A stretch of DNA of 64,000 nucleotides from Psychroflexus sp. ALD_RP9 (GTDB lineage Bacteria > Bacteroidota > Bacteroidia > Flavobacteriales > Flavobacteriaceae), in assembly GCF_017311165.1 (NCBI RefSeq), contig NZ_CP062973.1, positions 1,488,001 to 1,552,000 on the forward strand. Direction: 5' to 3'. Position 1 is the first letter of the stretch, and every line of letters begins with the position of its first letter. A program made the position numbers and the translations under genes. Below the pieces are notes generated by a model. The model had not been told where the DNA came from, did no database searches, and saw nothing but the letters and a program-made list of their open reading frames with translations. Positions 45,793-63,700 of this stretch are shown piece after piece.

Positions 45793-45794
45793 TT

Positions 45795-47083: not shown

Positions 47084-47109
47084 ATTAAAAGACAATCTTA
47101 AGCGAAAAC

Positions 47110-47140
47110 AGCCATTTATTAATAAATGGTTATTTTTTTT
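47110..47140 (+). terminator. Second hairpin downstream of clpX
   Basis: CCATTTAT / ATAAATGG with a 2-nt loop, followed by TTATTTTTTTT. It may be a backup terminator separating clpX from the surface-protein gene. Confidence 0.45.
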
Positions 47141-47197
47141 AAAGCATATTTACATAGATTTAAATCTTAATCTAGTAGGTGTAAGAACATGTTTTTA

Positions 47198-47205
47198 TAT
47201 TTTTG
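47198..47205 (+). promoter_or_regulatory. -7 promoter box for the type A surface protein
   Basis: TATTTTTG, a full TAnnTTTG match, 18 bp before the ATG at 47224. Confidence 0.5.
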
Positions 47206-47223
47206 TACATAAACATATAAATT

Positions 47224-50145
47224 ATGAAGAAAACTATTTTTTATTTATTTATTTTATTTGGATTATCTGTATTTCAAATGAACGCACAGACTAGTCCTAT
47301 AAATGAAACTTTTTCAAATCTAGGGCCTTACGGTGGTTACCAGACCGAAACCTGGACTGGTGATGATGGAGGAACCTGGACAGCAACAGATGCGAGAACG
47401 GATAGGTCCATTTCTGGTGCTGCTATAATGGTTCGTAATGGTGAACTAACAAGCCCTTCTGTAGCTGGTGGAATAGGCAGCTTAACAGTTACAACTCAAA
47501 GGCAATTTGGTGGTGGTTCAGGTAACATGGATTTAATAGTTAACGGAACATCTGTAGGATCTATCCCTTATGATGGAACGGTTCAAACAACTACCATTAA
47601 TGGTATAAATGTTTCTGGTAACGTGACCGTTGTTATTGACGCAACGAATTCATCAAGCGATAGGGTTGTAATTGACGACTTACAATGGACAGCTTATGCA
47701 GCTGGTTCTCCTCTTTTAGTATCAGATGAAATTACTATTTCAAATTTAGATTATGAAATAGGTAGCGGCCCATCAAGTTCTCAATCATTCAATTTATCGG
47801 GTTCTGACCTTGATAATTCAGATGTCACTGTTTCTGTGCCTGTTTCCTCAGATTTTGAGATTGCTGAAACTACTACTGGCACTTATTCTAATTCAATAAC
47901 ACTCGCTTCTTTTGATGGTACAGCTACTGATATTTTTGTAAGACTAAAGTCAGGCTTGTCAATTAATTCATATTCTGATAATATAACAGTTACAGGTGGA
48001 GGAGCTTCTGACATTACTGTTGGTCTGGAGGGTGAAGTTAGTCCTGAACCTTACGACAACGAAGAGACTTTTGCGAATTATCCTGAAACTTCAGGCTCTT
48101 ATGAAGATGGAGGCTTTTTAGGCTTGGCTGGAAATACTTGGAATTATTTAGCTGCAAGAGGAGATATTAATATAGATTCTGAGACGGTTACTTTAAGGAA
48201 TAACTCATCATCTTCTTTAAATTCCAATATTAATGGTGGTATTTCTATATTTGAATTTGATTATCTACAAGCTTTTAGCACAGATGTGAATCTAGAAGTT
48301 TATGTAAATGGTTCTTTAGTAACAACTGTTACCTCATCTTCTGAACAAGGAGTAACTAAAAATTCTGGACAAATTACAGTTAACGAGCCAGGATCATTCA
48401 CTATAGAATTTAAGCAGGCTTCAGGCGGTGGTCAGGTTGCAATAGATAATTTGAAATGGAATTCTTTTGCTATAACTCCTGATTACACATACGAAAGCGG
48501 CACCTGGAGTCCATCAAACCCTGTTGGATTTTCAACAGCTACCGATAATATTTTAATTGTTGATGGTAGCATTGATGTAACAGGAACATTAGTAGCTAAT
48601 AATTTAGAAGTAGCTTCTGGTGCCACTTTAAATGTAACTTCTTCAGGAATTTTAGATTTAGCGGGCGATATAACAAACAATGGAAGCTTAACTTTCCAAA
48701 GCGATGCATCTGGTTCTGGTCAATTAGCTAATTTTTCTGGAAGCATCACTGGAGATATCACCACTGAGCGTTATATCCCTGCTAAGCGTGCTTTTCGTTT
48801 GATCAGTTCAGCGGTTGATGGTTCAACCATCGCCAACGCTTGGCAACAAGACACGCATATTACAGGTGCAGGTGGCGCTACCAATGGTTTTGACGCTACA
48901 AATACTGATAATCCGTCTATGTTTACATTCGATAATACAATCACTGACCAATCTAGTGGTGCTGGATGGCAAGCTGTCACTTCAACAACTGATGTGATTT
49001 CAGCGGGAACGCCATACCGTTTAATGGTGCGTGGTGATCGAACCATCGATTTAGCTGATAATGAAGCACCAGCCACAGCAACCACTTTAAGTGCTTCAGG
49101 TACAATGCATACAGGAAGCTATTCACCAACTTTAGCTACAGCAGCTAACAATTATAGTTTTGTGGGTAACCCTTATCAAGCGGTAGTTGATTTTGGTGCA
49201 GTAACTAAATCTAATCTCACAGATTTTATCTATGTTTGGGATGCTTCAATTGCTGGGTCTAATGGTAATGGTGGTTATATCACCGTTCAAATCTCAACTG
49301 GAAATATCACAGCACCTAGCCCAAGTAGTTCTGATGCCTCGCAATACATTGCACCAGGTCAAGCCTTTTTTGTGCAAAACAACGCCTCTGGTAATGGCTC
49401 AATTACCTTTGAAGAAGCTGATAAAGCCACAGGTCAAGCTCAGGTGAGTATTTTTAGTACCTACACTAACTTTTACATCAACTCGCGTTTATACAAAGCT
49501 TCAGCTTTACAAAACGGTGAGATGGAAAGTGATGCCATAGGATTACGTTTTAATGAAAACTATACCACGATTGGTAGTGATGAAGATGCGAGTAAATTGG
49601 CCAATCCAGGTGAAAACTATGCGATTGTAAACAATGGTTTTAAATCGATTGATAAGCAAAACATCCCAACTGATGGCCATCAAGTTGATTTATTGATGAT
49701 GAACTATGAAGATACGGCTTACAGCCTAAGCTTCAATTTAGGGAATCAGCCTGAAACGCTTAAGGTTTACTTAAATGACAGCTATTTAAATACACAAACC
49801 GAATTAACAGAGAGCACAACTTATGACTTTACAGTTGATGCTAATGTGCCAGAGAGTATCGATCAAAACCGTTTTCATTTAAGTTTTGAAGAAGTGCCTT
49901 TAAATAACCAAAGTTTTGATGCCGGACAAGTTCGCTTGTATCCTAATCCAGTGGTTCATCAGTTACAAATTGAATTACCAGCTTCAGTTGAGATCAATTC
50001 AGTTCAAGTTTTCAATACCTTGGGTCAACAGGTGCTAACAACCACCCAATCTCAAGTTGATGTGAGTCAATTAGCCTCAGGTGTTTATGTGGTAGAGCTA
50101 GAAACTACAAAAGGGAAAGTGAGCAAGAAAATCATTAAGCAGTAA
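47224..50145 (+). CDS. T9SS type A surface protein (cassette A)
   Basis: 973 residues with a signal peptide (MKKTIFYLFILFGLSVFQMNAQ). Unique N-terminal half (about 23-514): two jelly-roll-like regions ending VVIDDLQW and VAIDNLKW, separated by an Ig-like module rich in Ser, Asp and Val (SDEITISNLDYEIGSGPSS onward), then a short beta-helix-like stretch (NNLEVASGATLNV). The C-terminal half (515-973) begins ERYIPAKRAFRL and is shared, with 8 differences in 459 residues, with the protein at 60741. It ends in a type A sorting domain (RLYPNPVVHQLQIEL ... GVYVVELETTKGKVSKKIIK), the signal for T9SS export and surface anchoring. A 64-residue membrane protein gene follows 24 bp downstream. The ligand is unknown. 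Confidence 0.87.
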   Translation: MKKTIFYLFILFGLSVFQMNAQTSPINETFSNLGPYGGYQTETWTGDDGGTWTATDARTDRSISGAAIMVRNGELTSPSVAGGIGSLTVTTQRQFGGGSGNMDLIVNGTSVGSIPYDGTVQTTTINGINVSGNVTVVIDATNSSSDRVVIDDLQWTAYAAGSPLLVSDEITISNLDYEIGSGPSSSQSFNLSGSDLDNSDVTVSVPVSSDFEIAETTTGTYSNSITLASFDGTATDIFVRLKSGLSINSYSDNITVTGGGASDITVGLEGEVSPEPYDNEETFANYPETSGSYEDGGFLGLAGNTWNYLAARGDINIDSETVTLRNNSSSSLNSNINGGISIFEFDYLQAFSTDVNLEVYVNGSLVTTVTSSSEQGVTKNSGQITVNEPGSFTIEFKQASGGGQVAIDNLKWNSFAITPDYTYESGTWSPSNPVGFSTATDNILIVDGSIDVTGTLVANNLEVASGATLNVTSSGILDLAGDITNNGSLTFQSDASGSGQLANFSGSITGDITTERYIPAKRAFRLISSAVDGSTIANAWQQDTHITGAGGATNGFDATNTDNPSMFTFDNTITDQSSGAGWQAVTSTTDVISAGTPYRLMVRGDRTIDLADNEAPATATTLSASGTMHTGSYSPTLATAANNYSFVGNPYQAVVDFGAVTKSNLTDFIYVWDASIAGSNGNGGYITVQISTGNITAPSPSSSDASQYIAPGQAFFVQNNASGNGSITFEEADKATGQAQVSIFSTYTNFYINSRLYKASALQNGEMESDAIGLRFNENYTTIGSDEDASKLANPGENYAIVNNGFKSIDKQNIPTDGHQVDLLMMNYEDTAYSLSFNLGNQPETLKVYLNDSYLNTQTELTESTTYDFTVDANVPESIDQNRFHLSFEEVPLNNQSFDAGQVRLYPNPVVHQLQIELPASVEINSVQVFNTLGQQVLTTTQSQVDVSQLASGVYVVELETTKGKVSKKIIKQ

Positions 50146-50169
50146 TTCAAAACATTAAAACAGAAAAAC

Positions 50170-50364
50170 ATGAGACATACTTATAAATATGCATTATTAA
50201 TGATGATGGTTTTAGTGGCCGTACAGTTAAATGCACAAGCATTAGAAGATGCCATTGGATTTGAAGACACGGTAAGTGACACGCCTGCGGCACCGATTCA
50301 TTTTTTAATACCACTAGCCATTGCAGTGGGCGCTTTTTTAGGGATTAAAAAACTGAAAAAGTAA
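50170..50364 (+). CDS. Small membrane protein with sorting-signal-like tail (copy A)
   Basis: 64 residues. Signal peptide (MRHTYKYALLMMMVLVAVQLNAQ), then about 20 mostly acidic or polar residues (ALEDAIGFEDTVSDTPAAP), a hydrophobic helix of about 16 (IHFLIPLAIAVGAFLG) and a basic end (IKKLKK). This is the tripartite plan of protein-sorting tails and recalls the short PID-CTERM-like proteins of Flavobacteria, though the exact PID motif is PIH here. A twin at 60522 differs in one residue. Both lie directly after a type A surface gene. The role is unknown; a membrane partner of the surface protein is an inference. Confidence 0.8.
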   Translation: MRHTYKYALLMMMVLVAVQLNAQALEDAIGFEDTVSDTPAAPIHFLIPLAIAVGAFLGIKKLKK

Positions 50365-50385
50365 AAATAGTATCCTAACCAAAGT

Positions 50386-50424
50386 TAAAAGCGATGTTCA
50401 GTATTGAGCGTCGCTTTTTTTATT
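50386..50424 (+). terminator. Rho-independent terminator in repeat arm A
   Basis: Stem GCGATGTTCA / TGAGCGTCGC (two G-T pairs) with loop GTAT, flanked by A and T runs, 22 bp after the small gene. Confidence 0.85.
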
Positions 50425-50455
50425 ACACAGAAGTTCGTTTAACTTTTACAAAGTG

Positions 50456-50463
50456 TATTTTTG
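50456..50463 (+). promoter_or_regulatory. -7 promoter box for the sugar transferase
   Basis: TATTTTTG, only 4 bp before the preferred ATG at 50468. Transcription would start at or near the ATG, giving a leaderless or nearly leaderless mRNA. Confidence 0.5.
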
Positions 50464-50467
50464 TAGT

Positions 50468-51055
50468 ATGTATATAAAGTTTGGTAAAGTACTATTTGAT
50501 ACGCTTCTTGCTACAATACTTTTTTTGGCATTATTGCCTATTTTACTCCTAATATCTATAATTCTTTTATTCTTGCATAAAGATTCACCTTTCTTTACTC
50601 AAATTAGAATTGGTCAATACACTAAAGAATTTAAAATATATAAATTTAAAACGATCACTTCAACTGGTGAAAAATCATCTTTTATGAAATTTCTTAGAAA
50701 AACAAAACTAGATGAAACACTTCAACTACTTAATATTATAAAACAAGAGATGAGTTTTGTAGGGCCAAGACCTGACATTCCTGGATATTACGATCAATTA
50801 TCCCCTAAATACAGCGCTATATCAAGTCTAAAACCAGGTTTAACAGGCTATGCTTCATTAAAATTTTCAAATGAAGAAAGTCTTTTGTCAAAACATAAAA
50901 ACCCGCTTAAATATAATGACGAAGTTATTTTCCCTGAAAAATTACGTTTAAATTTGAAATATCAAAAAGAAATTTCGTTTAAAACAGACCTTAAGCTGCT
51001 TTTTATTACATTTTTAGTGGTTTTAAATTTAACTAACTATGACACAAAAATCTAA
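50468..51055 (+). CDS. Undecaprenyl-phosphate sugar phosphotransferase family protein
   Basis: 195 residues from ATG 50468; a GTG at 50453 adds five residues inside the promoter box. One N-terminal membrane segment (about 10-35) precedes the cytoplasmic domain of the bacterial sugar transferase family (PF02397 type): FFTQIRIGQ, FKIYKFKT, FLRKTKLDETLQLLNIIKQEMSFVGPRPDIPGY and SSLKPGLTGYASL. These enzymes put the first sugar phosphate on undecaprenyl phosphate. The DegT aminotransferase overlaps its 3' end by 17 bp, pointing to a diamino-sugar initiating unit (as in bacillosamine), though an acetyltransferase is absent here. Confidence 0.88.
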   Translation: MYIKFGKVLFDTLLATILFLALLPILLLISIILLFLHKDSPFFTQIRIGQYTKEFKIYKFKTITSTGEKSSFMKFLRKTKLDETLQLLNIIKQEMSFVGPRPDIPGYYDQLSPKYSAISSLKPGLTGYASLKFSNEESLLSKHKNPLKYNDEVIFPEKLRLNLKYQKEISFKTDLKLLFITFLVVLNLTNYDTKI

Positions 51056-52178
51056 AATATGGTTATCTTCTCCGCACATGGGAGGCAACGAGCAAAATTA
51101 CATTAATGAAGCTTTTGCAGAAAATTGGATTGCTCCGCTGGGGCCTAATGTAAATGCCTTTGAAGCTCAACTTGAAGATTATCTTAGTCCAAAATCTTAC
51201 ATTGCTACATTAAGTTCAGGAACAGCAGCTCTACACCTTGCGCTTGTCCAGTTAGGCGTAACATATGGAGACGAAGTTTTATGTCAAAGTTTTACATTTT
51301 CAGCTTCAGCTAATCCTATTATTTACCAAGGAGCCAAACCTATTTTTATTGATAGTGAAGAGCAAACTTGGAACATGTGTCCTCATCATTTAGAACAAGC
51401 TATTAAACACCGCTTAGAACACTACAAAAAGCCCAAAGCAATTATAGCTGTTCATTTATACGGAATGCCTTATCAAATTGAAAAAATTCATGCTATTGCT
51501 AAAGCTTATGATATTCCTGTTATAGAAGATGCTGCTGAAGCTTTAGGCTCAAGCTACAAAGCACAAAGTTGCGGTACTTTTGGTGAGTTTGCAGCTTTAA
51601 GTTTTAACGGTAATAAAATAATTACCACTTCTGGTGGAGGTGCCTTAGTTTGCAAAACGCTTGAAAGTAAACTAGAAACCGTGAAATATGCCACACAGTC
51701 GCGTGATGATGCACCACATTACCAGCACTCTCAATTAGGCTTTAATTACCGAATGAGCAATATTTGTGCAGGAATTGGGCGTGGACAAATGGAAGTGCTA
51801 GACCATCATATAGCTTTGAGAAGACAAATGCATGAGTTTTATAAAGCACTGTTTAAAAACGTTGATGGTATTGAAATATTTGAAGAACCCAACAGCAATT
51901 ATGTTTCTAATCACTGGTTATCGGCTATAACCGTAGATCCCCAAATAACAGGTTTTACAAGAGAAGAACTTCGTTTGAAGTTATTAGAAGATCATATAGA
52001 AAGCAGACCTTTATGGAAGCCGATGCATTTGCAACCCTATTTTAAGGAAGCTTTGTTTTTTGGCAATAGCGTAGCAGAAACATTATTTGATCAAGGCCTA
52101 TGCTTACCATCAGGATCTAACCTTTCTGATAATGATCGAGAACGCATCTCAAACCAAATCGAATCATTTTTAAAGTAA
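51039..52178 (+). CDS. DegT/DnrJ/EryC1-family PLP-dependent sugar aminotransferase
   Basis: 379 residues. It should aminate a 4-keto nucleotide sugar. Visible: LSSGTAALHLAL (phosphate-binding loop), VIEDAAEALGSSY (Asp of the PLP ring), the Schiff-base lysine Lys193 in SFNGNKIITTSGGG, and GFNYRMSNICAGIG. The sequence is closest in character to PglE/bacillosamine-type aminotransferases. Start ATG is inside the sugar transferase gene, so they are coupled. Confidence 0.9.
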   Translation: MTQKSKIWLSSPHMGGNEQNYINEAFAENWIAPLGPNVNAFEAQLEDYLSPKSYIATLSSGTAALHLALVQLGVTYGDEVLCQSFTFSASANPIIYQGAKPIFIDSEEQTWNMCPHHLEQAIKHRLEHYKKPKAIIAVHLYGMPYQIEKIHAIAKAYDIPVIEDAAEALGSSYKAQSCGTFGEFAALSFNGNKIITTSGGGALVCKTLESKLETVKYATQSRDDAPHYQHSQLGFNYRMSNICAGIGRGQMEVLDHHIALRRQMHEFYKALFKNVDGIEIFEEPNSNYVSNHWLSAITVDPQITGFTREELRLKLLEDHIESRPLWKPMHLQPYFKEALFFGNSVAETLFDQGLCLPSGSNLSDNDRERISNQIESFLK

Positions 52179-52184
52179 AGTTAT

Positions 52185-52760
52185 ATGAACCAAAATTCAA
52201 ACACTATACAAGATATTATTCGTTTACGTCGATCAATATTTCCAGCCCAATTTAATGATGAGCCAATCACTGAAACAGAATTGCAACAAATTCTAGAAGC
52301 TGCTAATTGGGCACCAACACATCGCAAAACAGAGCCATGGCGATTTAAAGTTATGCAGGGTAAATCAAAAACTAAACTGAGTGCTTTTTTAGGAAGTTTA
52401 TATTTAAAACACACTGAAAACCCTTCAAAATTTAAACATCGAAAAATCATCGATAAATTTCAGCAGTCCTCTTGTGTTATCGCGATTTGTATGCAACGTG
52501 ACCCCAAAGAAAGTGTTCCTGAATGGGAAGAAGTTGCTGCAGTTGCAATGGCTGTTCAAAATATGTGGCTTGCAGCAACTGACTTAAAAATTGGTTCATA
52601 TTGGAGTTCGCCAAAACTAATTAAACATTTTAATCAATTCTTTGATTTTGCTGAAGGCGAACGCTGTTTAGGTCTATTTTATATGGGAAAAACTGATCAA
52701 GATTGGCCTGAAGGTGAACGAAAGTCTAACATTGAAGATAAAATTGAATACTTTAATTAA
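52185..52760 (+). CDS. Nitroreductase family flavoprotein
   Basis: 191 residues. IIRLRRSIFPAQFNDEPIT at the start, ANWAPTHRKTEPWRF (FMN-binding) and CLGLFYMGKTDQDWPEGER at the end are typical of the YdjA-type nitroreductase group. FMN-dependent NAD(P)H oxidation of nitro compounds or quinones is expected; the natural substrate is unknown. It follows the aminotransferase by 6 bp and is convergent with the DUF456 gene. Confidence 0.88.
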   Translation: MNQNSNTIQDIIRLRRSIFPAQFNDEPITETELQQILEAANWAPTHRKTEPWRFKVMQGKSKTKLSAFLGSLYLKHTENPSKFKHRKIIDKFQQSSCVIAICMQRDPKESVPEWEEVAAVAMAVQNMWLAATDLKIGSYWSSPKLIKHFNQFFDFAEGERCLGLFYMGKTDQDWPEGERKSNIEDKIEYFN

Positions 52761-52763
52761 GCT

Positions 52764-53267
52764 TTAAAACAAAAGCTCACGAGCGTCTATAACTTTATAA
52801 ATAAAAAATACAGTAAAGCTTAAACAACAAACAAATTTGATAAAAGTTGAAGCTAAAAATCCCATAAAAGCGCCAGTTGCTGCCTTAAATGCATCTTGGT
52901 GTTGACGTTTATTAAATACCAATTCTCCAATAAAAGCACCAATAAACGAACCGATTAAAAACCCTAAAGGTATAGGCGAAAGTAAACCTAATATTAAGCC
53001 TACACTAGTGCCAATCATTCCGTATTTGCTGCCGCCATATCGTTTTGTACCATAAGCTGGTATTATATAGTCTAATATAAATATTATTAGAGCTAAAGTA
53101 AAAGTGATAGATAAAACTGTATAATTCATTGGGATGTCTGGAGCTAAATAGAAAAATAATAGTCCCAACCAACTAATCGGTGGTCCTGGTAATACAGGTA
53201 AAAAGCTACCAAAAATCCCTGTAATACATAATACAAATCCTATACTTATTAATAAAATACTCATCAC
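52764..53267 (-). CDS. DUF456 family membrane protein
   Basis: 167 residues in about five hydrophobic segments. FGSFLPVLPGPPISWLGLLFFY and YGGSKYGMIGTSVGLILGLLSPIPLG with GAFIGELV are hallmarks of DUF456. Glycine-zipper-like repeats (GLILG, GSFIGAFIGE) suggest tight helix packing. Function is unknown in the family. It diverges from blaI across 107 bp. Confidence 0.85.
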   Translation of the reverse strand: MMSILLISIGFVLCITGIFGSFLPVLPGPPISWLGLLFFYLAPDIPMNYTVLSITFTLALIIFILDYIIPAYGTKRYGGSKYGMIGTSVGLILGLLSPIPLGFLIGSFIGAFIGELVFNKRQHQDAFKAATGAFMGFLASTFIKFVCCLSFTVFFIYKVIDARELLF

Positions 53268-53318
53268 TTCAATTTTAACGAGTTTAAATGTATCATTAAA
53301 ATTTTAACACAGAAAATC

Positions 53319-53334
53319 AACTAAATATTTAGTT
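53319..53334. promoter_or_regulatory. 16-bp perfect palindrome, probable BlaI-type operator
   Basis: AACTAAATATTTAGTT is a perfect inverted repeat that runs into the -7 box at 53334 of the blaI operon. Its position, the adjacent BlaI/MecI-type repressor gene, and the dimeric nature of these repressors make it the likely autoregulatory site. It is also 52 bp from the divergent DUF456 gene, which it might control as well. Confidence 0.55.
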
Positions 53335-53341
53335 ATATTTG
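53334..53341 (+). promoter_or_regulatory. -7 promoter box for the blaI operon
   Basis: TATATTTG, a full TAnnTTTG match, 33 bp before the blaI ATG and touching the palindrome. Confidence 0.55.
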
Positions 53342-53374
53342 GATTCATATTAAAGATTTAAAGCTGAAACCAAA

Positions 53375-53740
53375 ATGAAAGAATTAACACGAGCAGAAGA
53401 AGAAATTATGCAAATTTTATGGCAACTTGACCATGCTAAAGTGAGTGAAATTATTGATCAAATGCAGCATAAAAAACCATCATATAATACAGTTTCTACC
53501 ATTGTTCGTATTTTACAAGATAAGGGTTTTGTAAGTTTTAGAAAAGAAGGTCGCGGTTATCGCTATTTCCCTATTGTTAATAAAGAAGCTTATCAAGCTT
53601 CGCGAATGAACACGTATGTAAATAATTATTTTGACGGTTCATTTAAAAATATGCTGTCTTTTTTTGTGAAGAAAAAAGAAGTGAATGTTGATGACCTTGA
53701 AGCGATCTTAAATCAAATAAATCCCAAAGACGATGCTTAA
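53375..53740 (+). CDS. BlaI/MecI/CopY family transcriptional repressor
   Basis: 121 residues. ELTRAEEEIMQILWQLDHAKVSEII and KPSYNTVSTIVRILQDKGFVSFRKEGRGYRYFPI form the winged helix of this family. The C-terminal residues make the dimerisation helices. BlaI proteins repress until a BlaR1-type membrane protease relays a signal. That partner overlaps its 3' end by 8 bp. Confidence 0.92.
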   Translation: MKELTRAEEEIMQILWQLDHAKVSEIIDQMQHKKPSYNTVSTIVRILQDKGFVSFRKEGRGYRYFPIVNKEAYQASRMNTYVNNYFDGSFKNMLSFFVKKKEVNVDDLEAILNQINPKDDA

Positions 53741-55367
53741 ATATTTACTTGATGTATTGGTTTTACAAGCTTTATTTTTAATAGCATTTCAGGCCATTAA
53801 ACAAAGCCGACTTTTTCAACTTAATCGTTTGTTTTTATTGCTTTCTATTGGGTTATCTATACTTCTGCCACTGTTAAGTTTTAAATGGTTAACTGCTATT
53901 TTTGAAACTCCAGCTTTAAATTTTGAGCTTCAAATAGGTGAACTTTCAACCATGTTTATCGACAACACATCAACTGTAACCCAAATAGATACTTCAGCCG
54001 TAGCACAAAAATCTAAAATGCAATGGTCTTGGCTTCAAATTATAGTAACTATAGTTGGGTCAATTAGCTTACTTAAGTTGATTTTATTACGCTATAAATT
54101 TCGAAAAATCCAGAAAGTATTATCAACAGCGCGTTTTATGTGTTATGATCATGACTGCGAAATCTATTCTTTGCCTCATTCTACTGAAGCGTTTTCATTT
54201 TTGAAAAAAGTCTACATCGGAAGTGATTTTTCAGAAGCTCAATTCAAACACATTTTAGCACATGAAAAAATACACGCACAATCTCTGCATAGCTTAGATG
54301 TTCTTTTAATCGAGTTTTGCTCAGCAATTTTTTGGTTTAATCCTTTTTGGTACTGGTACAAAAGTGAATTTGCCCTTTTGCATGAATATGAAGCAGATGC
54401 TAAAGCTTCTAAACTAAGCTCCGTAAACGCTTACTTTCAGAGTTTGTTAAATGTAAGTTTTGGTACTCAAAACCTCAAATTTGTCAATCATTTTTTTAAT
54501 CAATCAATCCTTAAAAAACGAATAATTATGTTACAACAATCTAACAAAAATCAGTTTAAAGCCATTAAATATTTATGGCTATTACCAGCTTTATTATTAA
54601 GCTTAACCTATTTATCATGCACTGAAGATAGTGTGAAAGATGATGTTTTGCAGCAGCAGATTCATCAAGAAGAAGCCGAAGTTTATCGGGCGAAATTTCA
54701 AAAAATTATTGATGCGAGATTAGCTGAAGGCCAAACTATTTTTGAAATTATGCAAAGTGATGAGTTTGATATTGAGCATAATGATACTAAAACAAAAGAA
54801 GAATTTTATAAATCTCAGGTCATAATGAAGAATCTTATGACTGTTGTTTATGAAGAAAAACCTGATGGAGAAGCGCGTTTAGCTGAAATGCAGGAAATGT
54901 TTACCCAAACTTATGAAGATTATCTGAAGTCTAAAAAAGACAAGCAAACATATACCGTCGAAACAGAATATGTTGAAGATACCGAACACACCAAAGGTTT
55001 AGATGTTGGGTTTATGCATGTAAATCAAGCGCCGTATTTCGAGACATGTGAAGGTTTAGTGAGTAATAAAGAAACCAAACAATGTGTTAGCCAATTCATT
55101 TCTGACTTTGTGAGTAAAAAAGCGATTGAAGTTGGATTAATACAAACAGCTAAAAATTTAGGATTTCAAGATATACAACGTGTTTACGTACAATTTAAAA
55201 TTAATACTTTAGGAGAAATTGTTAACGTAAAAGCACGTGCGCCGCATCCTGACTTGCAACAAAAAGCAGAAACAATTATTAAACAATTGCCTGACATGAT
55301 ACCTGGCGAACATCATGGTGAAGTAGTTAATGTAGTTTATAGCTTGCCGATCACTTTTAAAATATAA
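53733..55367 (+). CDS. BlaR1/M56-type membrane metallopeptidase with TonB-like C-terminus
   Basis: 544 residues. Membrane helices at about 5-25, 33-52 and 102-120, then the M56 peptidase site H177-E-K-I-H181 and HEYEADA (about 217), flanked by IFWFNPFWYWYKSEF. A fourth helix (about 285-305, YLWLLPALLLSLTYLSC) leads to a soluble region of about 240 residues. The last 90 or so (IQRVYVQFKINTLGEIVNVKARAPHPDLQQ) are a TonB C-terminal-like domain, not a penicillin-binding sensor. In this phylum that layout is common, and the signal sensed is unknown; beta-lactams cannot be presumed. Overlaps blaI by 8 bp. Confidence 0.9.
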   Translation: MLKYLLDVLVLQALFLIAFQAIKQSRLFQLNRLFLLLSIGLSILLPLLSFKWLTAIFETPALNFELQIGELSTMFIDNTSTVTQIDTSAVAQKSKMQWSWLQIIVTIVGSISLLKLILLRYKFRKIQKVLSTARFMCYDHDCEIYSLPHSTEAFSFLKKVYIGSDFSEAQFKHILAHEKIHAQSLHSLDVLLIEFCSAIFWFNPFWYWYKSEFALLHEYEADAKASKLSSVNAYFQSLLNVSFGTQNLKFVNHFFNQSILKKRIIMLQQSNKNQFKAIKYLWLLPALLLSLTYLSCTEDSVKDDVLQQQIHQEEAEVYRAKFQKIIDARLAEGQTIFEIMQSDEFDIEHNDTKTKEEFYKSQVIMKNLMTVVYEEKPDGEARLAEMQEMFTQTYEDYLKSKKDKQTYTVETEYVEDTEHTKGLDVGFMHVNQAPYFETCEGLVSNKETKQCVSQFISDFVSKKAIEVGLIQTAKNLGFQDIQRVYVQFKINTLGEIVNVKARAPHPDLQQKAETIIKQLPDMIPGEHHGEVVNVVYSLPITFKI

Positions 55368-55376
55368 ATTTTGAGA

Positions 55377-56531
55377 ATGTATAAGTTTTGGAAGACTACA
55401 ATTCAAGTTGTGCTGGCTTGCCTATTGATTTCTTTTAAGGCACAATCGCAAGCTTCACAACTTGATAGTTTATATGCTATTGGTGAGTATAGCAAAGCTA
55501 TTGGCTTGTATCAAAATCAAATTCCTTCAACTTTTAATGAGCGTATAAGTTTAGCTAAGATATATTTAGCGAAACAACAAAATAGTAAGGCTATAAATCT
55601 ATACAAGCTTGCGTTAAATCAAAAACAGGTATTAAAGCATCGGTTTACTTATGCACAATTATTATTAGGACAAAAACAATATAAAGTCGCGGACTCTGTA
55701 TTGACACAATTACATATTGATTACCCTAAAAATGCTGAGTTTGTTTATCAATTAGGGCTTTCAAAAAAACAGAGTAATACTACAAATTTAGATCAATATT
55801 TTGCTAAAGCAATTGCGTTAGATTCGACTCATTTACGTGCTTATTATGAGCTAGCATACTTTTACACTAACATAAAATCTTATAAAAAGGCGCAAGAAAC
55901 CTGCTTAAATGCTTTAAAAATAGACTCAAAGCATAAAAAAATTCTTGGGTTGTTAGCTCAGGTTCTATATAATGATCATGCCTATAAATTAGCCTTAACA
56001 TATTTTAAAGCATTTGATAAGCATTACGGTGTTCCAGAATTTATGCTAAAAAAGATGGCTTTTTCAGCTTGGTATTTACAAGATTTAGAATTAGCTATTA
56101 ACTATTATAATCGGTTACTTCAATTAGAGCCAAAATCTTATCGTTACCATCAAAATATAGCAAAAGTGTACAATGCTTCAGGTAACTTTAAATCTGGTAT
56201 GAGACATGCATTTTCAGCATTGCGAAATAAAGATGTTAGTCAAGCAAAGATTTACTATGAGCTTGGCGTGGCATTTTTAGGCACAAAACAATACAAACTG
56301 GCTGTAAGTACGTTTGAAAAAGTAATTGATGAAACACCAAGTTATGAATTAGCTTATGTGAAATTAGCACGAGCAGCAGATTTATTGTATCAAGATAAGT
56401 CTAAAGTGTTACCTTATTTTGAACGTTATGAAACCTATTTTGATGAAGTTGAAGATGCAGATTATAAAGACTTTATGTTGAGGCGTTTAAGTGATATTCG
56501 CCGAAAACTCCATTTCGATTCAGCAAAGTAA
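55377..56531 (+). CDS. TPR-repeat protein, exported
   Basis: 384 residues from ATG 55377 (a TTG six bases upstream is not needed). A signal peptide (MYKFWKTTIQVVLACLLISFKAQSQ) is followed by about nine tetratricopeptide repeats up to about residue 350, e.g. AYYELAYFYTNIKSYKKAQ and IYYELGVAFLGTKQYKLAV. TPRs bind other proteins. It lies 9 bp after the BlaR1-type gene, so it is part of that operon and may be a periplasmic partner of the signalling system. Confidence 0.85.
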   Translation: MYKFWKTTIQVVLACLLISFKAQSQASQLDSLYAIGEYSKAIGLYQNQIPSTFNERISLAKIYLAKQQNSKAINLYKLALNQKQVLKHRFTYAQLLLGQKQYKVADSVLTQLHIDYPKNAEFVYQLGLSKKQSNTTNLDQYFAKAIALDSTHLRAYYELAYFYTNIKSYKKAQETCLNALKIDSKHKKILGLLAQVLYNDHAYKLALTYFKAFDKHYGVPEFMLKKMAFSAWYLQDLELAINYYNRLLQLEPKSYRYHQNIAKVYNASGNFKSGMRHAFSALRNKDVSQAKIYYELGVAFLGTKQYKLAVSTFEKVIDETPSYELAYVKLARAADLLYQDKSKVLPYFERYETYFDEVEDADYKDFMLRRLSDIRRKLHFDSAK

Positions 56532-56549
56532 TGTCAACTGAAGATTTAT

Positions 56550-56557
56550 TACTTTTG
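56550..56557 (+). promoter_or_regulatory. -7 promoter box for the small lipoprotein gene
   Basis: TACTTTTG, a full TAnnTTTG match, 4 bp before the ATG at 56562, again allowing a nearly leaderless mRNA. Confidence 0.4.
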
Positions 56558-56561
56558 TAGC

Positions 56562-57011
56562 ATGAAGTTAATGATTAAGTTTTGTTTGTTGCTACTTTGC
56601 TTTTCTTGTCAACAATTTAAAAGCGAACCTGTTGAAGCAATTGTTGCTAAAGAAACTCGACAAATTAATTGGCAGTCTATAGACCAACTTCCTAAATTTT
56701 CAGCATGCGACCAAAGCGTTGATGAGTCACAAATTGAATGTTTTCAAAAAGCGATGTATCAGTCTATTAAATTAGATTCGTTGATTTCAACACACTCGAA
56801 TTTAAAAACCGATTCATTACAGCTTCAAATAATTATCACAAAATCAGGTCATTTTCAGTTAGAATCAATTAAAACTAAAAATACAGGTCAAATACAAATA
56901 TTAAACGAGAAATTAAAGATGTATTTTGCAGCACTAGAGCCTATTCAACCTGCCTATAAACGTGGTATTCCTGTAGACTTAAGGCTTTCGATACCAGTAA
57001 TTATAAAGTAA
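56562..57011 (+). CDS. Small lipoprotein with TonB-C-like fold
   Basis: 149 residues. Lipobox LLCFSC near the N-terminus (Cys about 16). The C-terminal part (LQLQIIITKSGHFQLESIKT ... LKMYFAALEPIQPAYKRGIPVDLRLSIPVII) resembles the TonB C-terminal fold and the tail of the BlaR1-type protein two genes upstream. It may therefore be a paralogue of that sensor's output domain held by a lipid anchor. It ends 11 bp inside the convergent barrel gene. Function inferred only. Confidence 0.7.
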   Translation: MKLMIKFCLLLLCFSCQQFKSEPVEAIVAKETRQINWQSIDQLPKFSACDQSVDESQIECFQKAMYQSIKLDSLISTHSNLKTDSLQLQIIITKSGHFQLESIKTKNTGQIQILNEKLKMYFAALEPIQPAYKRGIPVDLRLSIPVIIK

Positions 57012-57855
57012 ATTTGAGTGATAAGGTAAAATCGACAGGTGTTTCGCCGTTATCTTCAACAGCTAAGGCGTAAAAATCGTTATAATTTACTGCCACTTGA
57101 ACTGTTGGTGCTATTTGATAAGCCATGCCAATCCCAAAGCTAAAAGGTGTTTCAAGAGCTACAGACGATTCGTCATTTGTAATAATGCTGCCATCATTTT
57201 CCTCATAAACATCATCAAATTTTACAAAATCAAGACTAATAAACTCAGTTTCTAAAAACATGTTGAATTTTTTAGAATTGATAAATTTAAAGCGATGATT
57301 AATGGTAAATTGAGTTAGGCTAAAATTAACATCAGGCTGGTCTAAGGTTTGTCTTAGTTGTAAAAATAAACTGTGGCGCTTGTAGTTATTTAAACTAAAA
57401 AATTCAAGTTCAGCTCCTAAAACAGTAAAACGTTCATCGTTAAAATCATTAGTTAAGCCATTGGGTTTATTGAATAAAAAGGTGTTACTAACACCACCGA
57501 AAACTCCTAAACGAACTAAATAGCCATTATTTTCTTTTTTGAAATTTAAGTTGTATTGTTTTGTAAATGTGATCAGCGCTCTTAATCGAAAATTAAGTTG
57601 ATTGATTTTAGACTCAAACTCATGACCAATCAGTTGCTTATATTTTACTTTGTAGTTGTTTTTGGTAATTTTTTCAAACTGATCTTTAAAAGAAATAAAA
57701 AACGTGTTTTTATCTCCATTTACATTAGCATAAAGTGATAATTCGCCATCAACAAGTGTTTTCAAATTATAATTTTCACCTTCAATGGTTTGATTTTCTT
57801 GAGAAAAACTTAAAAGAAAACAGTTTAATGCTAAAAATATCAATAGCTTTTTCAT
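57001..57855 (-). CDS. Outer membrane beta-barrel-like protein, unknown
   Basis: 284 residues with a signal peptide (MKKLLIFLALNCFLLSFSQ). Alternating hydrophobic/polar strands throughout, ending in a hydrophobic-terminated strand (DFTLSLKFTL), suggest a barrel of eight to ten strands. The N-terminal part (about 20-95) may form a small periplasmic domain. I do not recognise the family. It lies 18 bp after the glycosyltransferase gene and probably shares its transcript. Confidence 0.7.
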   Translation of the reverse strand: MKKLLIFLALNCFLLSFSQENQTIEGENYNLKTLVDGELSLYANVNGDKNTFFISFKDQFEKITKNNYKVKYKQLIGHEFESKINQLNFRLRALITFTKQYNLNFKKENNGYLVRLGVFGGVSNTFLFNKPNGLTNDFNDERFTVLGAELEFFSLNNYKRHSLFLQLRQTLDQPDVNFSLTQFTINHRFKFINSKKFNMFLETEFISLDFVKFDDVYEENDGSIITNDESSVALETPFSFGIGMAYQIAPTVQVAVNYNDFYALAVEDNGETPVDFTLSLKFTL

Positions 57856-57873
57856 AATTATTGGAGTTAATTC

Positions 57874-58968
57874 TTATTTCCAAATATATTTATTATTAAA
57901 CAAACTTAAGCTAAATGCTAACAATAAAAATGGATAGATAAGGCTAATTTTTAAAAGTTGACGTACACACAAACTTAAATGATAAGGCTTAGAAAATGAC
58001 ATAATTAGGTTGACATCAACTAAGATTTTACTAATTACGAAACAACTAAAAGCTATCGGAGACATGTATTGAAGCATGACCAAAACTAAAGCTATAATAA
58101 GATTAATATGCCCCAAAAATAAGACTAGATTGAGCCAATTGGCCATGTTATCTTTAAAGTGTGTACTTTTACTAAACCAGCGTTTGCGTTGGTTTAAAAG
58201 CGACTTAAGATTTTCACAGGGTAAAGTGATAACAACGTCTGAAGTATTTAGGTACTTAATAGTTAGGTTGTGTTTTAAAAATGTTTCTAATAAAAAATGG
58301 TCATCACCACTTACTATGTCAATATTAGTTTGATAAGGTTTTACTTTTTTAAAACTTTCTTTTTTATAAGCCATATTTGCAGCATTACAACTTATAGGTT
58401 TACCAAGTAAGTAACTCGCTTTAGTTATAGCTTGTATAGCTAAGAAATCATAGTACTGAAAATTCTTCCAAAAAGAGCTTTGTTTATCACAGCTTACAGG
58501 ACCAAAAACCAATTGAGCTTTACTAGATAAAAACTGATGAGAGTAGTCTTGTAAAAGATACACAGGTAAATAGCAATCTGCATCAGTTGTAAATATATAA
58601 TCGTACTTAGCTTGATTTACGCCTAAAATTAGAGCTGATTTTTTCCCTGATTTAGGCTTTATTAGATCGATAATTTTAAAATTTAGAGGAGACTTTTTTA
58701 ACTTATTTCGTATCACTTCAACCGAAAGATCAGTTGAGTGGTCGTTAATAAAAATCACTTCAAAATCGTCTCTAGAATATTTAAGGTCGTTCAAGGACAT
58801 CAATAATGGTTCTATTCGCTTCTCTTCATTTTTAAAAGGAACCAAAATGCTGAATTTTATTTTACTAGTAGAATGTACTTCCTTAAAACTCGATCGTTTC
58901 AACTTAAAAATACATAGTGCAATAACAACTAGATAACATAAATGAAGTGAATAGCTAAGTAATAACAT
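57874..58968 (-). CDS. Family 2 glycosyltransferase (processive type), membrane-bound
   Basis: 364 residues. One N-terminal helix, then the GT-A domain: SILVPFKNEEKRIEPLL, DDFEVIFINDHSTD, the DxD motif at D129-A-D131 (FTTDADCYLP), GDDHF at 221-224, and Q260-R-K-R-W264, the QxxRW motif of processive beta-glycosyltransferases. Three more helices close the protein. It overlaps the flippase-like gene by 14 bp. It probably extends a surface glycan or a lipid-linked sugar; donor and acceptor cannot be read from sequence. Confidence 0.87.
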   Translation of the reverse strand: MLLLSYSLHLCYLVVIALCIFKLKRSSFKEVHSTSKIKFSILVPFKNEEKRIEPLLMSLNDLKYSRDDFEVIFINDHSTDLSVEVIRNKLKKSPLNFKIIDLIKPKSGKKSALILGVNQAKYDYIFTTDADCYLPVYLLQDYSHQFLSSKAQLVFGPVSCDKQSSFWKNFQYYDFLAIQAITKASYLLGKPISCNAANMAYKKESFKKVKPYQTNIDIVSGDDHFLLETFLKHNLTIKYLNTSDVVITLPCENLKSLLNQRKRWFSKSTHFKDNMANWLNLVLFLGHINLIIALVLVMLQYMSPIAFSCFVISKILVDVNLIMSFSKPYHLSLCVRQLLKISLIYPFLLLAFSLSLFNNKYIWK

Positions 58969-59890
58969 TTGCTTTTAGTTTAGTCCTGTATAGACCTTGT
59001 AATAAGCTTCCAATCATCGCAGGAAGTGCAAAATTAAACAACCACATCAAACTAAACCCGGTTAAGATTAAACTTGGAGTTTGGTTTAGATAACCAAAAA
59101 TTAGAAGTCCTAAGCTGCTCTTAATGGCAACATCTACCACAAAAAAACTTGGAATAACTGAGCTCAAAATATACATTACATTAACGGCCATTAAAGTATC
59201 TAAATAACTAAGCTTAATACCAAAAGCCCATAAAATAAGCACTAACTGGTGACTAAATACCAAATGTTTTAATAATGATAAACCAATTTGCTTGGGAAAT
59301 TTAGATAAATAAGGTTTAAGTAGAATTAATTTTTTTCTAAGTTTTGGGTGGTATTGTATAAAAGCAAATACCACTAAAATAACTACTAACCCAATAACTA
59401 AAAACTGAAAATTTTGAAACTCTTTAAAAGTAAAGTTAATGAAATACACCAGACCAAAACCACCAAAAACAATAGTGCTTAAAAGTTGAGAAAACTGACT
59501 TACACCATTTGAAATCGCTACATATTGCCGTTGAAAAGAATCGTAAAACAAAGCCTTTGCGATATAATCACCAAGCCGGTTGGGTGTGAAAATTGCTAAA
59601 CTATGACTTTTAAGATTTTGAAATAAGGCTATTTTAAACGAGATATTAATTTTCGGCTTTAATACCAATTTCCATTTTAGGCTGTCTAACAACCAGTTGA
59701 AGCTAGATAGAATTAGATTAATGATTACAAAGCAAAAAACTAAGCGGACATCATATTTATTTAGGGTCAAAAAAACTTGATCAAACCCTGCTGCAGATGT
59801 ATTTATTTTGTACCAAATAAAAAGTACACTTAATAATGGCAGCCCAAATTTTAATACAAGCTGTATTATTTGATTAGCTTTGTAATTCAT
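58955..59890 (-). CDS. Lysylphosphatidylglycerol synthase-type membrane protein (flippase-like)
   Basis: 311 residues from ATG 59890 (the ATG at 59905 adds five residues). About eight to nine hydrophobic segments; FNWLLDSLKWKLVLKP, FTPNRLGDYIAKAL and SSVIPSFFVVDVAIKSSLG match the LPG_synthase_TM/YbhN family. Members move or modify polar lipids. Coupled to the GT2 gene, it may export a glycolipid. It diverges from ruvC by 24 bp. Confidence 0.82.
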   Translation of the reverse strand: MNYKANQIIQLVLKFGLPLLSVLFIWYKINTSAAGFDQVFLTLNKYDVRLVFCFVIINLILSSFNWLLDSLKWKLVLKPKINISFKIALFQNLKSHSLAIFTPNRLGDYIAKALFYDSFQRQYVAISNGVSQFSQLLSTIVFGGFGLVYFINFTFKEFQNFQFLVIGLVVILVVFAFIQYHPKLRKKLILLKPYLSKFPKQIGLSLLKHLVFSHQLVLILWAFGIKLSYLDTLMAVNVMYILSSVIPSFFVVDVAIKSSLGLLIFGYLNQTPSLILTGFSLMWLFNFALPAMIGSLLQGLYRTKLKANVIT

Positions 59891-59914
59891 ATTACAAAGA
59901 AACAATTTTTATAC

Positions 59915-60466
59915 GTGTCGACTGAAAAAATTATTTTAGGAATAGATCCTGGTACAACCATTATGGGATTTGGAGTGATTAAGGTTGTCCATAAAAAAAT
60001 GGAGTTTATACAACTTAATGAACTCAACTTAAAAAAATACAGTGACCATTACACTAAACTTAAATTGATTTTTGAACGTACAATAGAATTAATTGACACG
60101 CATCACCCTGATGAAATTGCTATTGAAGCCCCTTTTTTTGGGAAAAATGTACAATCTATGCTTAAGCTTGGTCGTGCTCAAGGTGTTGCTATGGCTGCAG
60201 GATTAACGCGCCAAATCCCAATTACCGAATACTTGCCTAAGAAAATAAAGATGGCCATTACAGGTAATGGAAATGCCAGTAAAGAGCAAGTCGCTAAAAT
60301 GCTACAAAGCCTATTAAAAATTAAAGAATTACCAAAAAATCTAGATTCTACAGATGGATTAGCAGCTGCAGTTTGTCATTATTACAATAGCTCAAACCAA
60401 ATCTCTTCAAAATCCTATTCAGGCTGGAAAGCTTTTGTTACCCAAAACGAAAAAAGGCTTAAATAA
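59915..60466 (+). CDS. ruvC: Crossover junction endodeoxyribonuclease RuvC (GTG start)
   Basis: 183 residues from GTG 59915, which gives MSTEKIILGIDPGTTIMGFG, the usual flavobacterial start; the ATG at 59870 would add 15 residues and overlap the divergent gene. Catalytic acids: Asp11 in LGIDPGTT, Glu in AIEAPFFGKNVQSM, and the pair near DSTDGLAAAVCHYY. It cuts Holliday junctions with RuvAB. Its stop (60464-60466) lies within the first bases of repeat arm B, so it uses the arm's hairpin as terminator. Confidence 0.94.
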   Translation: MSTEKIILGIDPGTTIMGFGVIKVVHKKMEFIQLNELNLKKYSDHYTKLKLIFERTIELIDTHHPDEIAIEAPFFGKNVQSMLKLGRAQGVAMAAGLTRQIPITEYLPKKIKMAITGNGNASKEQVAKMLQSLLKIKELPKNLDSTDGLAAAVCHYYNSSNQISSKSYSGWKAFVTQNEKRLK

Positions 60467-60500
60467 AAAAAGCGACGCTCAATACTGAACATCGCTTTTA
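60462..60500. terminator. Rho-independent terminator in repeat arm B
   Basis: The same hairpin as in arm A. Here it lies between convergent genes (ruvC on plus, the small gene on minus) and has A/T runs on both sides, so it can act both ways. Confidence 0.85.
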
Positions 60501-60521
60501 ACTTTGGTTAGGATACTATTT

Positions 60522-60716
60522 TTACTTTTTCAGTTTTTTAATCCCTAAAAAAGCGCCCACTGCAATGGCTAGTGGTATTAAAAAATGAATCGGTGCCGCA
60601 GGCGTGTCACTCACCGTGTCTTCAAATCCAATGGCATCTTCTAATCCTTGTGCATTTAACTGTACGGCCACTAAAACCATCATCATTAATAATGCATATT
60701 TATAAGTATGTCTCAT
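60522..60716 (-). CDS. Small membrane protein with sorting-signal-like tail (copy B)
   Basis: 64 residues, identical to the protein at 50170 except Ala24 to Gly right after the predicted signal cleavage site. Same plan: signal peptide, acidic stretch, hydrophobic helix, KKLKK end. It lies 24 bp after the second type A surface gene, inside arm B. See copy A for what may be inferred. Confidence 0.8.
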   Translation of the reverse strand: MRHTYKYALLMMMVLVAVQLNAQGLEDAIGFEDTVSDTPAAPIHFLIPLAIAVGAFLGIKKLKK

Positions 60717-60740
60717 GTTTTTCTGTTTTAATGTTTTGAA

Positions 60741-63700
60741 TTACTGCTTGATGATTTTCTTGCTCACTTTCCCTTTTGTAGTTTCTAGCTCTACCACATA
60801 AACACCTGAAGCTAATTGACTCATATCAACTTGAGATTGAGTGGTTGTTAGCACCTGTTGACCCAAGGTGTTGAAAACTTGAACTGAATTGATCTCAACT
60901 GAAGCTGGTAATTCAATTTGTAACTGATGAACCACTGGATTAGGATACAAGCGAACTTGTCCGGCATCAAAACTTTGGTTATTTAAAGGCACTTCTTCAA
61001 AACTTAAATGAAAACGGTTTTGATCGATACTCTCTGGCACATTAGCATCAACTGTAAAGTCATAAGTTGTGCTCTCTGTTAATTCGGTTTGTGTATTTAA
61101 ATAGCTGTCATTTAAGTAAACCTTAAGCGTTTCAGGCTGATTCCCTAAATTGAAGCTTAGGCTGTAAGCGGTATCTTCATAGTTCATCATCAATAAATCA
61201 ACTTGATGGCCATCAGTTGGGATGTTTTGCTTATCAATCGATTTAAAACCATTGTTTACAATCGCATAGTTTTCACCTGGATTGGCTAATTTACTCGCAT
61301 CTTCATCACTACCAATAGTGGTATAGTTTTCATTAAAACGTAATCCTATGGCATCACTTTCCATCTCACCATTTTGTAAAGCTGAGGCTTTGTATAAACG
61401 CGAGTTGATATAAAAGTTAGTATAAGTACTAAAAATACTCACCTGAGATTGACCTGTGGCTTTATCAGCTTCTTTAAAGGTAATTGAGCCATTACCAGAG
61501 GCATTGTTTTGCACAAAAAAGGCTTGACCTGGTGCAATGTATTGCGAGGCATCAGAACTACTTGGGCTTGGAGCTGTGATATTTCCAGTTGAGATTTGAA
61601 CGGTGATATAACCACCATTACCATTAGACCCAGCAATTGAAGCATCCCAAACATAGATAAAATCTGTGAGATTAGATTTAGTTACTGCACCAAAATCAAC
61701 TACCGCTTGATAAGGGTTACCCACAAAACTATAATTGTTAGCTGCTGTAGCTAAAGTTGGTGTATAGCTTCCAGTTTGTAAACTACCTGAAGCACTTAAA
61801 GTGGTTGCTGTGGCTGGTGCTTCATTATCAGCTAAATCGATGGTTCGATCACCACGCACCATTAAACGGTAAGGTGTTCCCGCTGAAATCACATCAGTTG
61901 TTGAAGTGATAGCTTGCCATCCAGCGCCACTAGATTGGTCAGTGATTGTATTATCGAATGTAAACATAGACGGATTATCAGTATTTGTAGCGTCAAAACC
62001 ATTGGTAGCGCCACCTGCACCTGTAATATGCGTGTCTTGTTGCCAAGCGTTGGCGATGGTTGAACCATCAACCGCTGAACTGATCAAACGAAAAGCACGC
62101 TTAGCAGGGATATAACGCTCGACTTCAACTGTTCCTGTGCCTGAAATAGTACCTGTAAACTCGTCTAATTGAGCTGTTGATGTTGCATTACTCTTAAAAG
62201 TGATTGTTCCATAATTTACCATGTCATTAGATAAATTTAAACTAGCAGTAGGGTTGATATCGAGTGTTGCTCCATTATCTACAAAAATATTGTTAGTATT
62301 AACATCACTTGAAATATCTGGTGTGCCACCAGCATTTACATATAAATTATCATTTGCAGAAATAAACCCATCAGGTTCGTTGGTCCATGCAGTACCGTCC
62401 CAGAGATACACAGTAGATTCGCAAGAAACTGAAGCTGTAAAACCTTCTCTAGTAACTGATCCATCAGATTCTAGTACTAATGTAATACAGCCCGATGCTG
62501 AAGTTGCTGCAATAGAAACACCAAGTAAATCACCTGAACCGGAAGCTGTTGTATCATCTCTATCCCAACACCACTGGGTTCCTCCAGCTGGTGGGTCTAT
62601 TGTTGCTGCGCTTGTATTATTACCATCGTAAACAGTTAAGCCATCATAGCATCCTGTTCCATTGTTTTCAAAGCTAAATTCAGAAAAGTTAATGACTACT
62701 TTGTCACCAGGATTATCTGGACAAATAGTTATTGTTTCATTAGCGCTACTTGAATAGTCAGAACCAACTCCTCCTGAATCTGTAGCTAAATCTCCAGCAC
62801 AAAAATCTTTTAATGTTGTAAAACTAACTGCGCTTGACCAGTCACTTTTATCTCCACCGCCGCAATCACTTCTAACGTAGGCATCATAATCTGTATTCCC
62901 AGATAATCCTGAAGCAGAAACACTTGTGCCAGTAACACCGTTTGCAGAATCTGCAAAAGGGCCAACATCTGGGTCATCACCAGAAGCCACAATTACCCAA
63001 TCGTAACCGCTGCTAGCAGTGGCTTCTAAATCCCAATCTAGGTCTACACCTGAAGAGGTAATGTTAGATACGGATAAGTTTTCTGGTGTGATACAGCTTG
63101 GAGCTTCTTCAAAAGTCACGTCATCTATAGCGATGTCATCTCTAAAACCACCTTCATCTGTTATCGTAAATCTGACCTGAGCGTCACCAGTAAATGTAAG
63201 TGAACTCAATGCTATTTCTTTTCTTTCCCAACCATTAGTATCTGCACTAAAGCTACCTACATTATTCCATGAACTTCCGTCATAAACTTCAACATCTAAA
63301 GTAGCGTTAGGATCTGAACCACTATCACTAATCATATAAAAAGCAACTTGCGGTGTAGTGAGTGAACTTAAATCTATAAAAGGACTTGTTAGTGTGCTTG
63401 GTCCTTGAGAGCCAGAATTATCAATCCATGCAAAATAGTTACCGCTATCGGTTGAGCCAGTAATAGTTCCGCCATCACCAATATTTTCACCAGCACCAGT
63501 AGTGTCGTAATTCCAAGCTTCGCCCCCAGATTCTGTCCAGCAATCAGGAGTTGCTCCTGCATTTTCAAAGTCTTCTGTCCATGGTAGAGATTCTGTATTA
63601 CAAGCTGTTGTAAAACTAACTGCGCTTGACCAGTCACTTTTATCTCCACCGCCGCAATCGCTTCTAACATAGGCATCATAATCTGTATTTGGAGATAATC

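Follow-up and report, generated by a model that had tools for sequence, protein, structure and literature searches.

Shared 3' ends of T9SS surface-protein genes in Psychroflexus, their probable exchange, and an inversion between species

Two large surface-protein genes in the chromosome of Psychroflexus sp. ALD_RP9 face each other across 10 kb and end in almost the same sequence, which raises the question of what keeps such ends alike and whether they act as a switch that inverts the genes between them. The window referred to below is the whole stretch of DNA that was analysed, 64,000 bases at positions 1488001-1552000 of a host genome held in one contig of 2,555,922 bases. The answer that we consider probable is that gene conversion takes place among four copies of a shared 3' module, with RecA-type inversion between two of them (A and B), and that no switch is involved.

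The arms and the module they carry

A repeat search of positions 44000-64000 returned one inverted pair, 48766-50424 against 60462-62120, with arms of 1,659 bp each, 10,037 bp apart and 98% complementary, exactly the positions, equal lengths and spacing reported by the first-pass annotation. Compared base by base, arm A and arm B show 0 gaps and 31 mismatches (98.1% identity); the near-identity judged by eye was thus real, and the figure of about 99% slightly high. At 1.66 kb and 98%, the repeat far exceeds what chance would produce. The first-pass annotation was also right about the contents of each arm, namely the 3' half of a large gene of T9SS type A, a 64-codon gene and a terminator, and the features are laid out as follows.

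45795-47027, plus strand: clpX, the left outer neighbour and a marker
47224-50145, plus strand: gene A, 973 amino acids, with a T9SS type A sorting domain at its C-terminal end
47224-48765, plus strand: 5' half of gene A, outside the repeat
48766-50424, plus strand: arm A, the 3' module (last 459 codons of gene A, 64-codon gene, terminator)
50170-50364, plus strand: 64-codon gene of arm A
50387-50418, plus strand: terminator hairpin of arm A, 14 pairs
50425-60461: segment between the arms, 12 genes from a sugar transferase to ruvC
59870-60466, plus strand: ruvC, inner neighbour of arm B, its stop overlapping the arm end
60462-62120, minus strand: arm B, the 3' module at gene B (459 codons, 64-codon gene, terminator)
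60468-60499, minus strand: terminator hairpin of arm B, 14 pairs, the same sequence as the hairpin of arm A
60522-60716, minus strand: 64-codon gene of arm B
60741-64000, minus strand: gene B, 1,507 amino acids, extending past the window to its start at genome position 1553264

The arms start on codon boundaries within the large genes, at codon 515 of 973 in gene A and codon 1049 of 1507 in gene B, and over the shared part 27 of 459 codons differ, 19 synonymously and 8 with a change of amino acid. With A and B facing each other 10 kb apart, a crossover would invert the genes between, and the placement of the arms supports the earlier proposal that it would do so without breaking a gene. A terminator scan found 9 sites against 8.7 in shuffles and a promoter scan 56 against 63.5; despite a yield close to that of shuffled sequence, both arm terminators are believed because they are identical, lie at the arm ends and have 14 pairs each. 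Structured RNA at the arm ends was considered and rejected, an Rfam search of 44000-64000 having given no match at the gathering score.

The 5' halves and promoters of both genes lie outside the segment and both arms end in terminators, for which reasons a flip would probably have little phenotypic effect. The terminators at the two inner ends shield the twelve genes of the segment, and little is expected to change beyond the strand on which those genes lie. Because the 5' halves and promoters stay outside, a flip cannot make surface variants, and the suggestion in the first-pass annotation that the layout varies the exposed part is not supported: what is swapped is a pair of 3' halves that are 98% identical. 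A phase switch of surface proteins was rejected on the same ground, and neither gene A nor gene B has the promoter or 5' coding end inside the segment that an invertible element would place there. In the sapA system of Campylobacter fetus, repeated parts of surface-layer genes recombine, a segment inverts and expression switches; in that system the genes share their 5' part and the inverting segment contains the promoter, whereas here the shared part is 3' and the promoters are outside. Inverted surface-gene ends are therefore not necessarily phase switches, since with a 3' shared part the exposed halves and promoters are unchanged by a flip. The arms, as 1.66-kb gene ends, also differ from the short sites, served by a recombinase, of a site-specific invertible element; a recombinase-driven element was rejected when Pfam gave no recombinase family among the segment proteins scanned, 10 of the 12.

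The proposal to search the genome for more copies of the shared half proved fruitful, yielding two further ones, so that the 2.556-Mb chromosome holds four (A, B, C and D). Copy C lies at genome positions 2247986-2249659 with 95% identity to the arm, 710 kb from copy A, and copy D at 1121651-1123258 with 92% identity over query positions 1-1593. The module consists of the final 459-464 codons of a gene for a T9SS type A protein, followed by a gene of 63 or 64 codons; its terminator is common to A, B and C, and copy D has a terminator of its own. All four share the joint codons ERYIPAKRA, the first 28 bases of the module are identical, and B and C are alike over a further 90 bases upstream of the joint. 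The genes otherwise differ: gene C (2,298 codons) carries C-type lectin, HYR and laminin-G domains by Pfam, the 5' half of gene B fn3 and MAM domains, and gene D (901 codons) no Pfam domain beyond the sorting signal. TIGR04183 matches all four genes at 50.8-59.7 bits against a cut-off of 23, which places them in T9SS type A. An AlphaFold2 model of the module, built from a 14-sequence alignment, is weak (mean pLDDT 67, pTM 0.42) and consists mostly of strands, and a PDB sequence search gave only two borderline matches, both to the sorting domain (E 0.013 and 0.037). The module also occurs in P. salarius DSM 25661, beside clpX (A') and at the C and D loci. Within the 5' half of gene B, positions 62814-63113 and 63606-63905 form a 300-bp direct repeat, 92% identical and 792 bp from start to start, which probably represents repeated fn3/MAM units.

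Gene order in relatives and the probable cause of the inversion

The order in the window runs from clpX through cassette A, sugar transferase, aminotransferase, nitroreductase, DUF456 gene, BlaI-like gene, M56 gene, TPR gene, two unknowns, glycosyltransferase, LPG-synthase-like gene, ruvC and cassette B to metallophosphatase and hemW, with clpX as the outer marker on the left and the last two on the right. Among 27 genomes of the genus, the full set of markers stands together in four only: that of the window, P. salarius (where a contig break intervenes), G005 and G022; in the others at least one of clpX, ruvC, the transferase and the metallophosphatase is missing, on another contig or distant.

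In P. salarius, one contig (C9) passes clpX and breaks off within the module, and another (C7) reads hemW, metallophosphatase, a remnant, ruvC and so on to the transferase, ending in the module. That ruvC adjoins the metallophosphatase is seen directly; that the first contig continues into the second follows by elimination. Four P. salarius contig ends lie inside modules, as expected for true repeats. Of cassette B only the terminator and the 3' half of the small gene survive, as the remnant between ruvC and metallophosphatase (L041:12990-13290). The window has homologous sequence at both inner junctions, and the shared orientation fits a stable arrangement without proving one.

The comparison with relatives that the first-pass annotation recommended revealed the opposite order in G005 and G022. 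G005 reads clpX, a cassette with a small gene, ruvC reversed and then, also turned round relative to the window, the LPG-synthase-like gene, glycosyltransferase, the two unknowns, DUF456, nitroreductase and transferase, followed by 125 bases, metallophosphatase and hemW; eight of the 12 segment genes of the window are present and four absent. G022 shows the same reversed order with five of the 12 genes and no cassette. The segment genes are thus turned round between the same outer neighbours, and the breakpoints coincide with the positions of the arms. An inversion has happened between species, with the window and P. salarius on one side and G005 and G022 on the other. An unrooted tree of ten genomes, built on tig, clpP, clpX and ruvC (the last missing in G013), groups the four at 100% and pairs the window genome with P. 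salarius and G005 with G022, each also at 100%. Two genes inside the segment at 53375-55367 encode a BlaI-like repressor (Penicillinase_R) and an M56 protein with a TonB-type C-terminus; neither was found in the segment block of G005 or G022. Elsewhere in the genus, a related cassette lies directly upstream of the sugar transferase-aminotransferase pair in G004 (L049), G007 (L052) and G026 (L055), with no small-gene match behind any of the three, and that of G007 is split into two reading frames.

The polarity of the change was addressed in a survey of the family, in which 115 of 120 genomes had ruvC and the best 30 loci, one of them the window's own, were taken with about 1.5 kb of flank. hemW lies 3' of ruvC in 27 of the 29 non-self best loci (23 directly, four with one open frame between), and clpX lies on that side in none of the 29. 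Because of this recurrent placement of hemW, the window order, with ruvC facing hemW, is probably ancestral and the inversion probably occurred on the G005/G022 line. The converse, that the window order is the derived one, had drawn on the clpX-ruvC adjacency in G005, G022 and G021 and was rejected after the survey. It is worth noting that clpX stands beside ruvC even in G021, a divergent genome, which weakens the polarity, as does a tree without an outgroup.

What made the inversion is a separate matter. A RecA-type crossover between the cassettes probably produced the difference between G005/G022 and the window. Rare flips should also be expected in any large population, to judge from the rates at which inverted cassettes recombine in Salmonella: the available text of PMC8262849 gives 2.6e-6 per cell and generation on average, with inversion in 5 of 59 selected recombinants, and describes the events as dependent on RecA and RecB. 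These rates, together with arms of 1.66 kb at 98% that make good substrates and the occurrence of both orientations in the genus, would also suit an active, reversible inversion, in which frequent recombination between the arms keeps both orientations side by side in a living population. We regard this as unlikely, since the window and P. salarius share one orientation with homologous junctions, most of cassette B has been lost in P. salarius, and no phenotype would switch. Measured against known systems, the locus has the long near-identical inverted copies of the flip/flop or tuf type and both orientations with ends at the copies, these orientations being distributed between species only.

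Somewhat less likely again is that another process, such as a mobile element since lost, inverted the segment, and that the cassettes came to its ends independently. The junctions lend this some weight. The G005 cassette between clpX and ruvC has an N-terminus that resembles gene A (34%, 7e-17), but there is no second cassette between transferase and metallophosphatase in G005 (125 bp between open frames) or G022 (165 bp), and none at the clpX-ruvC junction of G022, so that under RecA-type crossover the repeats must have been lost there. Against an independent origin, both breakpoints fall at module copies, of which 2.5 Mb holds only four, these two copies are correctly oriented to each other, and the ten segment proteins scanned include no transposase or recombinase.

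Probable exchange among the copies and the history of the 5' halves

Synonymous divergence (dS) was compared in the last part of the module, taken as the codons after 49400. The copies differ by 0.028-0.086 within the window genome and by 0.18-0.22 within P. salarius; orthologous loci of the two species differ there by 0.19-0.27, and nine single-copy genes by 0.41-0.78. Because dS in this part is lower within the window genome than between orthologues or in the background genes, its copies have been made alike since the species separated; by this measure within-genome homogenisation is clear in the window genome and weak in P. salarius. The first part is more varied, ranging from 0.05 (A-B) to 0.46 (A-D) in the window genome and from 0.27 to 0.88 between orthologous loci. 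The closest copies are A and B in the first part and A and C in the last (A-C 0.03, A-B 0.08), so A and B have no special tie to each other. Rather than forming a dedicated pair, the arms are two of four copies, and in the last part A stands nearer to C than to B. Between species the module also has a dS below background, which may reflect exchange between species or constraint.

A mosaic test of seven copies (287 polymorphic of 1,355 columns, 21 pairs, 5,000 permutations, without correction for multiple testing) points the same way. The longest concordant runs were reached by 0-19 of the 5,000 permutations for the six pairs within the window genome, by 0-2 for the three pairs within P. salarius, and by 27-605 for the twelve pairs between species. 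In trees of the first and of the last module part the two species separate, with support of 96% and 100% respectively, and along the arm stretches of AB|CD sites give way to stretches of ABC|D sites and back again. Homologous recombination in the form of gene conversion probably keeps the module, and above all its last part, near-identical within the genome.

That the copies do not recombine at all, and that a duplicated 3' half is held alike by protein-level selection, seems very improbable. A functional C-terminal signal and the synonymous character of 19 of the 27 codon differences between A and B are what such selection would leave; yet synonymous divergence itself is low (0.03-0.09 against a background of 0.41-0.78), the copies show a mosaic pattern, and the stretch of identity takes in the terminator. 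Assemblies can go wrong at repeats this long, and P. salarius contigs break in them, but an artefact in which a contig end had been duplicated or misplaced to give one of the arms, the case that the first-pass annotation named against itself, is scarcely credible given 31 differences between the arms, separate flanks for each, a genome in one contig, matching modules in P. salarius, which was assembled separately, and a P. salarius contig with the same ruvC-metallophosphatase junction and cassette B remnant.

Joined to the module at a single point, ERYIPAKRA, the 5' halves are unrelated or alike only in part, and some of them turn over between species. Residues 1-380 of gene A, compared with six genomes, have matches in three (40% elsewhere in their own genome, 33% in P. 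maritimus, 30% in G005) and none in P. salarius. The 40% relative lies upstream of the window at genome positions 1468544-1469059, in an open frame of 570 codons. The P. salarius counterpart A', over residues 1-853, is 71% like a clpX-linked gene of G011 over 11-252 and has only weak matches (27-30%) in the window genome. For the first 753 residues of gene B the best P. salarius match is 37%; no match links the 5' parts of D and D', while C and C' reach 89% over 1,832 residues. On these comparisons the 5' half has turned over at two of the three comparable loci.

Database relatives, drawn from the best 120 of 301 and the best 120 of 436 matches, add to this. The nearest relative of the gene A 5' half among the best 120 of 301 is a P. 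salis protein (P0013), with 285 of 350 residues identical to gene A over 165-514 and 204 of 459 over 515-973. The module beside clpX in P. maritimus is 79% identical to that of the window and the module at another P. salis locus 64%, which suggests that the drop in the P. salis protein is not merely that of a fast-evolving end. The halves were further compared in the 25 relatives best by module score among those listed, two of them the window's own. Gene A relatives P0016, P0021, P0022 and P0023 show 55-63% before the joint and 38-45% after it, and gene B relatives P0245, P0158, P0133 and P0210, aligned to the joint, 59, 49, 47 and 40% before and 33-36% after. No drop is seen in P0051 (41%/39%), P0054 (33%/37%) or P0148 (36%/34%), and in P0043 a module at 74% is preceded by just 111 residues that match gene A. 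On this evidence the 5' and 3' halves have had different histories, which meet at the edge of the arm, and either half may have moved.

A bolder extension, possible but tentative, is that the module, made up of a secretion end, a small exported partner and in most copies a terminator, is a spreading gene end, which would replace the native 3' halves of unrelated surface genes by recombination at the ERYIPAKRA joint and keep them identical, its inverted members occasionally re-creating local inversions. If so, new exposed halves would be set onto one common exit end, and the unrelated surface proteins of the phylum with virtually identical ends would be accounted for.

Parallels and the gene behind the module

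The nearest parallels for shared ends within the phylum are the KLIKK proteases of Tannerella forsythia and the adhesin modules of Porphyromonas gingivalis. The former are likewise T9SS proteins whose functional parts differ while their C-terminal domains are virtually identical, a feature termed unusual in PMC4404884, where the origin of the domain 'requires further research'; the available text of that paper does not mention recombination. Their shared end measures 86 residues, whereas here it comprises some 460 codons and a second gene, and divergence shows conversion between loci. Gingipain and HagA genes resemble the cassettes in being dispersed T9SS surface genes with identical adhesin repeats and modular exchange (PMC5266723), but the modules there are internal and form strain mosaics, and the main text, as available, is without the word 'inversion'. 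For the inversion, the flip/flop of yeast chromosome XIV offers a model: according to the accessible text of PMC9731477, a stretch of 24 kb has flipped repeatedly there by way of inverted gene copies that are homogenised. As in Saccharomyces, near-identical inverted copies flank a multi-gene segment, are homogenised within a species and are accompanied by both orientations among relatives; unlike there, the copies are gene ends rather than repeated gene pairs, and the two orientations, known within species in yeast, are here seen between species. The tuf genes and test cassettes of Salmonella (PMC8262849, as far as its text is available) share with the module the rule that dispersed near-identical sequences give gene conversion and, in a fraction of cases, inversions; tuf genes are whole genes far apart around the origin, in contrast to gene ends with unrelated 5' halves 10 kb apart. 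Searches of an open-licence library gave no description of this arrangement in Psychroflexus. For near-identical C-terminal ends on unrelated T9SS proteins, this is a clear case in which gene conversion between loci can be recognised as the source, whereas the available text of PMC4404884 leaves the origin of the KLIKK ends open; the conversion is probably also tied to the inversion seen between species.

The small gene that follows the cassettes has 61-71 codons (50170-50364 and 60522-60716 in the window; L045:10757-10948, L056:7456-8045 and L040:14371-14556 elsewhere), a signal-peptide-like start, a conserved LEDA(I/L)GF-like segment, a C-terminal hydrophobic stretch and a basic end. Scored with the PID-CTERM model NF046080, which has a cut-off of 26 bits, the window copy reaches 13.3 and the best, that of G005, 22.9; nothing in the window's own genome exceeds the cut-off, and weak matches occur in eight of 14 control genomes. 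A link in sorting between the small protein and an exosortase is only a guess. An exosortase-family gene above the Pfam cut-off does lie at genome positions 971470-971841, and 13 of the 27 genus genomes have one above that threshold.
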